64,000 bases of DNA from Dromiciops gliroides (taxonomy: Eukaryota; Chordata; Mammalia; Microbiotheria; Microbiotheriidae): assembly GCF_019393635.1 (NCBI RefSeq), contig NC_057861.1:57797532-57861531 (forward strand). Direction: 5' to 3'. Made by a program: the position numbers and the translations under genes. Of this stretch, positions 54,705 through 62,605 are shown piece after piece (the stretch's first letter is position 1; every line of letters starts with the position of its first letter). The notes beneath the pieces are model-generated. The model was not told the origin of the DNA and made no database searches. It saw only the letters and a list, made by a program, of their open reading frames with translations.

Positions 54705-54806
54705 TCAGCTCCGGACCTTGTCGTAGGCTCCAACCATTCGTTTGATATGGCAGAGTTTGTCTCGAAGGTCCTGGGTCTCCATTTTCTTGCTTTGGTATTC
54801 TGGACT
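54705..54806 (-). CDS. Occludin-like last exon: end of ELL domain
   Basis: Acceptor CTTCCCACCAG. Encodes SPEYQSKKMETQ, DLRDKLCHIKRMVGAYDK, VRS and TGA at 54707-54705. Human occludin ends [17 protein letters not shown], so the C-terminus is conserved to within a residue or two in length. Confidence 0.9.
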   Translation of the reverse strand, partial: SPEYQSKKMETQDLRDKLCHIKRMVGAYDKVRS

Positions 54807-60800: not shown

Positions 60801-62605
60801 TACACACACACACACACACACACACACACACACACACACACACACACACACTCTCTCTCTCTCTCTCTCTCTCTCTCTCTCTCTCTCTCTCTCTCTCTCT
60901 CTCTCTTTCTCTCTCTCTCTCTCCAGGTCATGGGTCTGGGTGAATTGACCCGATCACTGCCTTCAGGTTTTTGAAAGGCTGCCCTGTGGAAAAGGGAGCA
61001 GATTTATTCTGTCCTGTCTCCACCCCCCACCTCACCCCCAACCCCCCAACCCCTGCCCCTTGGGAGCCAGGAATGGGAGGTGGAGGAAAGCATACCTAGA
61101 CTCCATAGCAGAAGAACCTTCTAAACAATTGGAGCCGTCATCCAAAAATGAAATGAACTACTTTGGGAGGTGGTGAGCTCCCCCTCTCTGGAAGGCTTCA
61201 AGAGGAGGTTCCACGACCACTTGTTAGGGGCGTTGGCCAGCACATTCCCGGCCAGCAGGTCTCAGAGCAATCTGGGAGCACTTGGCTCTGAGAGGCTGTT
61301 TCCCCATGGAGGGGGGACTCCCCAAGCATGCTCCCCTCCCCAGCTCGCTCCCCCCCCACAGCTCTCGAGGGGCCAGGCACGTGACAGCCACACACCCACC
61401 TTTGCCTGCTCCTTTCTCTGGCTCTGCCCCCCGGGCCAGCTGACCAGGCTCTAGGTTAATCATTCTCCCTACAGAAACTTAGACTATCTTGAGCAAATAG
61501 GGAATGGAAGGGTGGGACACATGGGGACAGGCCTGGTACCCTGGCACCAAGCTCCCTGCTGAGGCTGGGCGGCGCTGAGGCCAAAGCAGGCAGACTGGCT
61601 CCAGGGGGATGAATGCTGAAAATACCTTTTCTCTAAGGAGGCAGCGAGGTAATAACCGGGAGAGAGCTGGTCTTGGATCCATCAAATGACCTGGATTCAA
61701 GTTCTGCCATCTACTGGCTTTGGGACCCTGGGCAAAGCATTTCACTTGTCACTACACTAGGCAAGTCTCTGAGACTCAAGTTAAGAACCTGTATTGATAC
61801 AGGGAGTTTCCCCATTAGGGAGTTCCCGATGTCAGTGAAGTCACAAGTCCTGTCCCTATTCTTAGGATCCGCCTAATAATAGCTAGTATTTGTATGACAA
61901 AACACATGACAAATTTATTATTTCATTTCATCCTTATAACACCCCTGGAGGAGGGGGTAGGTGCTATTATCTTCCCCATTTTATAGATGAGAAAGCAGAG
62001 GCAGACAGAGGTTAAGTGACTTGCCCAAGGTCACACAGCTAGTGTCTGAGGTCGGATTTGAACTCAGATCTTTCTGAACCCAGTTCAACTCTACCCACTG
62101 TACCATCTCACTTTTCTTATTACTGCCATTGTTCCCTCCCCCCTGAGGTAGATATTCTCTCTCCCATTCTTGCAGATGAGGAAACTGAGGCACAGAAATG
62201 AAAAGTGATTTATGCTCAAGCTCATACAGCATAAGTGGGGAAAGAAAAGGGCTTGGAACCCAGATCTTCTGACTGGAATGGAGAAAAAAACATTGGTCTC
62301 AGTAGCAGAAGATCTGGGTTCAATTCATGGCTCATACATTTATGATCTGTGTGATACTAGGTAAATCACTTGAGCTCTTTGATGGGACCCCCCCCCCCAG
62401 CCTGCTTACCCACTCATTCACACTGCCCCCCCCCCAGCCTGCTTACCCACTCCTCCACATTGGGACCCTCCACTGTAGCCAGGGGTTTGTCCCAGAAGAT
62501 GTTGGGCTTCCCATACTTCCAGATCTTGTGACGGGTCTTCTGGGCAAAATAACAGATGACACAGAGGAGGACAACGATGAGGAAGCCACAGACAATGGCC
62601 ACGGC
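54705..62605 (-). CDS. Occludin paralogue (MARVEL + ELL domains), 3' part of gene
   Basis: Occludin is a four-helix MARVEL protein of tight junctions whose cytoplasmic ELL coiled coil binds ZO-1. Six minus-strand exons are visible: 62605-62447 (helix 4), 58267-58125, 58015-57845, 57531-57359, 55102-55061 and 54806-54705. Diagnostic matches to human occludin: PNVEEW then VKNVSG (human PNVEEWVKNVS); CETDYTTAAES (YETDYTTGGES); YPAITSDAIRQAYK (YPPITSDQQRQLYK); EEYNRLKDLK (DEYNRLKQVK); SKKMETQDLRDKLCHIKRMV ([20 protein letters not shown]). The identity is too low for the occludin orthologue and the locus differs, so this is a paralogue. In human this position holds OCEL1, which has no membrane helix. 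Exons for helices 1-3 lie right of the window. One junction (57845 to 57531) has mismatched phase. The gene may be catalogued as OCEL1 or occludin-like; I give no symbol. Confidence 0.88.
54807..55060 (-). other. Occludin-like last intron
   Basis: 254 bp, GT/AG, no repeats. Confidence 0.8.
55061..55102 (-). CDS. Occludin-like 42-bp exon of the ELL domain
   Basis: Acceptor CTTCCTCCTCAG, donor AGG/GTAAGG, 14 codons: GVAEEYNRLKDLKR. Human occludin has ADEYNRLKQVKG. In phase with both neighbours. Confidence 0.88.
55103..57358 (-). other. Occludin-like intron with WSINE, MIRs and a 33-bp minisatellite
   Basis: WSINE 55230-55372(-, type B) flanked by AGTATTGGCCCATT duplications; L2-end phrase 55620-55700; MIR-like 56260-56400; MIR/THER1 56480-56700 leading into the minisatellite 56705-57195. 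Confidence 0.75.
56705..57195. repeat. 33-bp minisatellite derived from a MIR/THER1 tail
   Basis: About 15 units of the type CTGATGTCCTGGGTTCTAAG + GGCCCTCCCAGCC. Because 33 is divisible by 3, several frames stay open on both strands, producing long artificial ORFs with an 11-residue period. Confidence 0.9.
57359..57531 (-). CDS. Occludin-like exon: first part of ELL domain
   Basis: Encodes LYPAITSDAIRQAYKAEFN, DLQRYKALCSEMDDIGAQL and SRELDHLPEGSLRYQ; donor CAG/GTGAAG. The best acceptor is CTGCCCGCAG ending at 57532. Entering phase 1 from this acceptor does not match the phase-2 donor at 57845, so the 5' boundary is tentative. Confidence 0.82.
57532..58264 (-). other. Short introns around the linker exons
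   Basis: 57532-57844 and 58016-58124 are the introns flanking the linker exon. The first could hide a small extra exon or an alternative acceptor (for example GGGAATCCAG/G, exon start 57617, which restores phase). Confidence 0.5.
57845..58015 (-). CDS. Occludin-like exon: basic then acidic linker with phospho-motif
   Basis: Acceptor CTTCTCCCAG; donor AG/GTGAGG, or alternatively CCG/GTGAAG ending at 57876. Encodes APPPPEEKDKGPERLRP, an Arg/Gln-rich stretch and EEAQCETDYTTAAESGEE, then WDQNDWA. The same order of a basic patch, ETDYTT and an acidic W-containing end occurs in human occludin before the ELL domain. Confidence 0.8.
58125..58267 (-). CDS. Occludin-like exon: start of cytoplasmic tail
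   Basis: Acceptor TTTCTAG, donor AG/GTGGAC. Starts VKNVSGDAGTQDE, the direct continuation of PNVEEW as in occludin (VKNVSAGTQD), and ends QDNGYVHSTPSSP plus two bases. 47 codons. Confidence 0.82.
60804..60922 (+). repeat. (CA)n(CT)n compound microsatellite
   Basis: About 24 CA units followed directly by about 35 CT units. Confidence 0.95.
60985..61245 (+). mobile_element. CR1/L3 LINE ORF2 C-terminal fragment
   Basis: Encodes EVVSSPSLEGFKRRFHDHLL, the conserved CR1 C-terminus (EVVDAPSLEVFKARLDGAL). Interrupted by a C-rich low-complexity stretch (61020-61060). Confidence 0.7.
62398..62452 (-). repeat. 37-bp duplication containing the splice donor of the helix-4 exon
   Basis: The 18-base segment CAGCCTGCTTACCCACTC occurs at 62398-62415 and 62435-62452 (plus strand), each copy preceded by a C-run. 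The donor GGGTAAGC is therefore present twice on minus, at 62446 and 62409. Confidence 0.85.
62447..62605 (-). CDS. Occludin-like exon: fourth transmembrane helix
   Basis: Acceptor CTCCCCCAG, donor TGG/GTAAGC, 159 bp, phase 0 at both ends. Encodes AVAIVCGFLIVVLLCVICYF (a membrane helix), then AQKTRHKIWKYGKPNIFWDK and PNVEEW. Human occludin has AIAIVLGF, KTRRKMDRYDKSNILWDK and PNVEEW at the matching places. Confidence 0.88.

Follow-up and report, generated by a model that had tools for sequence, protein, structure and literature searches.

What is the gene with occludin-like exons that lies beside NR2F6 in the marsupial Dromiciops gliroides, at a place that in human we take to be held by OCEL1? 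The window, that is the whole stretch of DNA analysed, is 64,000 nucleotides long (C1:57797532-57861531, in a genome of 3.30 Gb on 17 contigs), and its minus strand was read over 54400-64000. Our analysis indicates that the gene is, with good probability, a full-length four-helix occludin between NR2F6 and OCEL1, orthologous to the proteins called 'occludin' or 'occludin-like' in monotremes, birds, reptiles, amphibians, fish and sharks, and that it is an ancient paralogue of OCLN, most likely an ohnologue from whole-genome duplication. The observed part of this reading consists of the domain content, the exon structure, the gene order in this genome and the grouping in trees. We refer to the gene below as the NR2F6-side occludin.

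Six of its coding exons lie in the window, placed by splice sites and all with AG acceptors and GT donors, as a first-pass annotation of this DNA had claimed, and one more lies beyond the right-hand edge. The features are as follows, in window numbering unless a contig is given.

C1:57864172-57863506 (L009 2641-1975), minus strand: first coding exon (the MARVEL exon), about 2 kb to the right of the window
62605-62447, minus strand: coding exon with membrane helix 4, ending in GPNVEEW (AG/GT borders; within the MARVEL match)
58267-58125, minus strand: coding exon VKNVSG..., cytoplasmic tail (splice sites; alignment with three marsupial proteins)
58015-57845, minus strand: coding exon with the ETDYTT linker (splice sites; the ETDYTT exon of OCLN has the same place in its gene)
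57531-57359, minus strand: first ELL exon (exon 7), its first bases one position out of frame with the exon before it
55102-55061, minus strand: second ELL exon, GVAEEYNRLKDLKR (splice sites)
54806-54705, minus strand: third ELL exon with the stop codon TGA (splice sites)
54420-54415, minus strand: AATAAA, likely poly(A) signal (consensus only)
38949..52460, plus strand: NR2F6, four coding exons, a continuous match to COUP-TF and other nuclear receptors

The PNVEEW/VKNVSG exon junction, the ETDYTT segment and the complete ELL domain, which had been reported together with the poly(A) signal, are all legible, and the C-terminus reads HIKRMVGAYDKVRS, followed by TGA. The first-pass annotation had also proposed a search for upstream exons, and helices 1-3 with both extracellular loops are indeed found in the MARVEL exon, which runs from MMYEKRSY through FYQWRS, PPGIIRIL, helix 1, a Gly/Tyr loop, helices 2 and 3 and the second loop to VDPQE and a GT donor, and continues into AVAIVCGF at 62605. 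Upstream of this exon (L009-L010) no match to the N-terminus of the Petaurus protein P0002 was seen, only a frame that runs on above MMYEKR, which leaves some doubt as to where translation truly starts. A tandem array (window 57185-56700) of units like 'GGGCCCTTAGAACCCAGGACATCAG', in which a reading frame is open on both strands, lies in the intron that separates the first ELL exon from the second.

With the Occludin_ELL profile (PF07303) the exon-7 piece reaches 50.3 bits and the conceptual protein, which carries X at frame breaks, reaches 96 bits; on the same protein the MARVEL profile (PF01284) scores 73 bits against a cut-off of 32.8, and hydropathy gives four helices. In the PDB the ELL domain is matched best by human occludin, at 97.2 bits, followed by ELL2 at 57.5 and MARVELD2 at 47.5. 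The gene thus has both a MARVEL four-helix domain and an occludin-type C-terminal ELL coiled coil. The claim that the exons reproduce occludin from helix 4 to the C-terminus holds exon by exon but not for one open frame, the frame breaks having been overlooked: a single open reading frame through canonical splice sites is not found in this assembly, where the frame is broken five times. Membership of the occludin family is a matter of descent and stands despite these breaks.

Is the gene then intact in Dromiciops gliroides? Four of the breaks lie in the MARVEL exon, near L009 2499-2518, 2185-2201, 2139-2155 and 2013-2030, and this exon has a premature TGA after VAGGL. The fifth lies at the exon 6/7 junction, which in orthologues reads DDWASLYPPITSD and where canonical splicing throws the reading out of frame and leads to stops; a splice choice that restores the frame was not seen by eye, exon 7 having no right-phase acceptor in its vicinity and exon 6 no more than a weak internal donor. 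Each break would apparently fit a one-base indel, judged against marsupial proteins rather than orthologous DNA, and the seven coding exons, as far as they were read, showed neither a nonsense substitution nor the loss of a splice site.

We lean somewhat towards an assembly (consensus) error over a recent loss as the source of the five breaks. A recent unitary pseudogene, intact in other marsupials and lost in Dromiciops gliroides or its close kin with OCLN left to do the work, nevertheless has a considerable chance, though a less than even one. The breaks themselves, the premature TGA included, argue for loss, and so does the state of comparable genes: NR2F6, used as a control, has 1182 nt and 393 aa in four coding exons without a frame break, its last exon ending 2.2 kb from the stop codon of the NR2F6-side occludin, and exons 6-9 of OCLN are open in this genome, so that errors are not general and a real loss has to be kept in view. 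Also in keeping with loss, no protein above 84% identity is among the matches listed, in a list clustered at 90% where an eight-member Petaurus cluster could hide a dasyurid.

Against loss, the protein shows no surplus of amino-acid changes. At sites on which the three other marsupials agree, unique changes number 17/401 in the NR2F6-side occludin, and the same count gives 15/399 in Petaurus, 20/404 in Monodelphis and 23/407 in Vombatus, the last inflated by an odd stretch in the Vombatus record; since these counts are comparable, drift in the protein is no greater than in its marsupial relatives. Simulated neutral decay at assumed rates gives a probability of 0.0016 for 17 or fewer unique changes when the full baseline is used and the indel:substitution ratio is 1:8, while over nine such settings the probability runs from 0.0002 to 0.52, with some of them compatible with loss. 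The uniform kind of damage points the same way: all five breaks resemble one-base indels, with neither nonsense substitution nor splice-site loss seen beside them.

To place the gene we turn to its kin in the same genome, where a PF07303 profile search gives at least 16 matches. OCLN proper lies near C1:438.97 Mb on the minus strand (102.3 bits to human occludin) and adjoins MARVELD2 near C1:439.08 Mb, also on the minus strand (105.5 bits). To the right of the NR2F6-side occludin and on the same strand lies a further gene with its own ELL exons at C1:57875438-57878307. We take this neighbour to be OCEL1, and a coding piece at about 93906-94178 (window numbering) to be USE1, both by resemblance to human sequence; the human gene order is presumably USE1-OCEL1-NR2F6, and by that order the NR2F6-side occludin sits between OCEL1 and NR2F6. 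The ELL domain of the OCEL1-type gene is matched best by MARVELD2 (67.9 bits), with no occludin among its three PDB matches at E<=0.001, in agreement with the first-pass view that OCEL1 resembles MARVELD2 rather than occludin and that the gene studied here is a paralogue apart from it. ELL2 lies at C1:459.3 Mb (109.2 bits), and a gene at C1:51.0 Mb, which matches ELL2 at 71 bits, would be ELL.

Several other matches are of separate interest. At about 5670-4094 on the minus strand of L020 (C4:190895000-190904000) lies a processed pseudogene, a copy of OCLN proper that lacks introns and changes frame several times. Two degraded ELL pieces of MARVELD2 type, at C2:61.52 Mb (L018) and C4:428.36 Mb (L019), are interrupted by stops and are probably pseudogenes as well. 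An intact ELL-domain exon at C2:194.94 Mb (L017), for which the best PDB match is ELL2 at only 41.4 bits, may belong to ELL3.

OCEL1 and the NR2F6-side occludin have the same order and strand as MARVELD2 and OCLN, and the NR2F6-side occludin is therefore probably the ohnologue of OCLN. This arrangement, with ELL 6.8 Mb from the OCEL1 pair and ELL2 20 Mb from the MARVELD2 pair, fits a duplicated block in which OCEL1 corresponds to MARVELD2 in shortened form and the NR2F6-side gene corresponds to OCLN. Two other identities were considered and rejected. OCLN proper at the NR2F6 locus, with no second OCLN in the genome, does not apply, since OCLN was found at C1:438.97 Mb beside MARVELD2 and the NR2F6-side gene groups with non-eutherian occludin; OCEL1 does not apply either, since the ELL domain is occludin-like and OCEL1 is a separate neighbour that groups with MARVELD2.

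A protein search with the conceptual protein gave 610 proteins at E<=0.001 among 7995 candidates scored, and relatives were taken from the best 120 of the 610. The closest among the matches listed are Petaurus 'occludin isoform X1' (P0002, 84%), Vombatus 'Occludin' (P0004, 83%) and Monodelphis 'occludin' (P0003, 82%), with identities spanning 99-100% of the query and with open frames. A second full-length mammalian occludin, thought at first to be unrecorded, is thus already on file under that name in three marsupials. Next among the matches listed come two more Monodelphis models, then monotremes, birds, turtles, squamates, amphibians, coelacanth, sharks and ray-finned fish, a range at odds with the initial idea of a duplicate special to marsupials. 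No eutherian was recognised among the named rows of the best 120 of 610, eight rows being unnamed. In the Vombatus record the end of the helix-4 exon reads KNFFGGVGKQAAGGVKNVSG where the others have NIFWD...PNVEEWVKNVSG; this model, too, is imperfect.

A phylogeny, which had likewise been proposed, places the NR2F6-side gene outside OCLN and with non-eutherian occludin. In a first tree of 40 of the best 120 and in a more careful tree of 24, it joins the three marsupials with full support and then two monotremes. The remaining set mostly follows vertebrate phylogeny, the coelacanth branching before ray-finned fish in the 24-sequence tree, contrary to the species tree; OCLN falls outside sharks and bony fish, but OCLN is also the chosen root. 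OCLN was represented by one retrocopy from this genome, plus a human sequence in the 40-sequence tree, with chicken, rat-kangaroo and non-mammalian OCLN left out; long branches are possible. In a tree of the ELL domain only, with 15 rows and 7/12 inner branches open, OCEL1 groups with MARVELD2 at 100/99 and two OCLN rows group at 99/96. By root-independent tests of constrained topologies, birds with OCLN are disfavoured at p 0.0011. The MARVELD2 region of birds is on Z, and of the 18 bird rows with a stated contig (not partial, among the matches listed) 12 are on contigs of 5.5-10.4 Mb, five on contigs below 2.4 Mb and one on a contig of 111 Mb; the contigs of 5.5-10.4 Mb would fit a microchromosome rather than Z, which we regard as a lead and not as proof.

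When did the two occludins part? A 2R date is compatible with the data without being proven, given that a tetrapod-only duplication has p 0.09 and that non-mammalian OCLN is outside the sample. For the same two reasons a younger duplication, for example one at the base of tetrapods or of lobe-finned fish in which the MARVELD2-OCLN pair was copied locally or as a segment, deserves some weight; we consider it rather unlikely, as the free tree places OCLN outside sharks and bony fish, and as the two pairs have ELL and ELL2 in their company, in keeping with a large block. A duplicate of OCLN specific to marsupials or therians would account for the presence of both genes in this genome, but it is highly improbable: duplications restricted to therians, mammals or amniotes are rejected by the topology tests under the model applied (p 0.0003, 0.0022 and 0.0018), and the NR2F6-side occludin is identical to its own OCLN retrocopy at 187/437 aligned sites, against 295/464 for emu occludin (emu against the retrocopy gives 209/455). 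Finally, the exons might be part of OCEL1, in a full-length version that is either alternative or ancestral. The place beside NR2F6, which is that of human OCEL1, speaks for this idea, yet it is scarcely credible with a separate OCEL1-type gene next door that has ELL exons of its own, and these match MARVELD2 instead of occludin.

An ancient ohnologue of OCLN beside NR2F6 would bear on how occludins are compared between species. Chicken is the species in which occludin was discovered. Ando-Akatsuka et al. are said to have cloned a rat-kangaroo occludin cDNA in 1996, with chicken and rat-kangaroo reportedly showing about 50% identity to human occludin, a figure from which the rat-kangaroo protein would be the NR2F6-side gene. 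We think it fairly likely that bird occludin, and by inference that of chicken and rat-kangaroo, is the gene between NR2F6 and OCEL1, that human, mouse and dog OCLN is its ohnologue, that marsupials and monotremes keep the NR2F6-OCEL1 gene whereas eutherians lost it, and that the 'interspecies diversity' of 1996 compared two genes. The interest lies in this probable hidden paralogy, not in an unrecorded gene. Should the occludins compared so far belong to two paralogues, findings transferred between eutherians and birds or frogs would have to be read afresh; in marsupials that possess both genes a division of labour could be tested directly, and OCEL1 would be explained as the shortened MARVELD2 counterpart in a duplicated MARVELD2-OCLN pair. 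Reviews treat occludin as a single protein that was discovered in chicken and later identified in mammals, and PMC8834532 mentions two zebrafish occludins. The paralogy is not described in the titles and abstract openings from our literature search, nor in the excerpts of PMC8834532, PMC2805614, PMC6928914 and PMC6928848, which hints faintly that it is absent from print.

What would such a protein do? From its domain content, the NR2F6-side occludin would act as a tight-junction MARVEL protein. In OCLN the MARVEL helices lie in the junction strand and the ELL coiled coil serves for ZO binding; by analogy, the four helices and two extracellular loops of the NR2F6-side protein would sit in the junction strand, and its C-terminal coiled coil may bind the ZO scaffold. 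Regulation might act through the kept ETDYTT segment. The OCLN regulatory sites Thr400, Thr404 and Ser408 lie directly ahead of the coiled coil (PMC6928848). More generally, the NR2F6-side occludin should act like occludin, judging from its sequence, and in Dromiciops gliroides this would depend on the breaks being assembly errors.

How, then, does the gene compare with known systems? By sequence it is the same gene as the 'occludin' of Petaurus, Monodelphis and Vombatus, whose filed frames are open where the Dromiciops copy has five breaks. Bird 'occludin' and the 'occludin-like' proteins of turtles, frogs and monotremes belong to the same clade and combine MARVEL and ELL (emu, P0045); emu, Xenopus and platypus, known from proteins rather than loci, have about 60-67% identity to the NR2F6-side occludin at aligned sites. 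OCLN shares the domains, the layout of the ELL and ETDYTT exons and the motifs NVEEW/VKNVS and ETDYTT, but differs in its locus in this genome and in sequence, with 187/437 aligned sites identical for its retrocopy. MARVELD2 (tricellulin), also a MARVEL and ELL protein, adjoins OCLN here and reaches only 47.5 bits against the NR2F6-side ELL domain, compared with 97.2 for occludin. OCEL1, the same-strand neighbour, shares the ELL domain, but in a MARVELD2-like form and as a separate gene.
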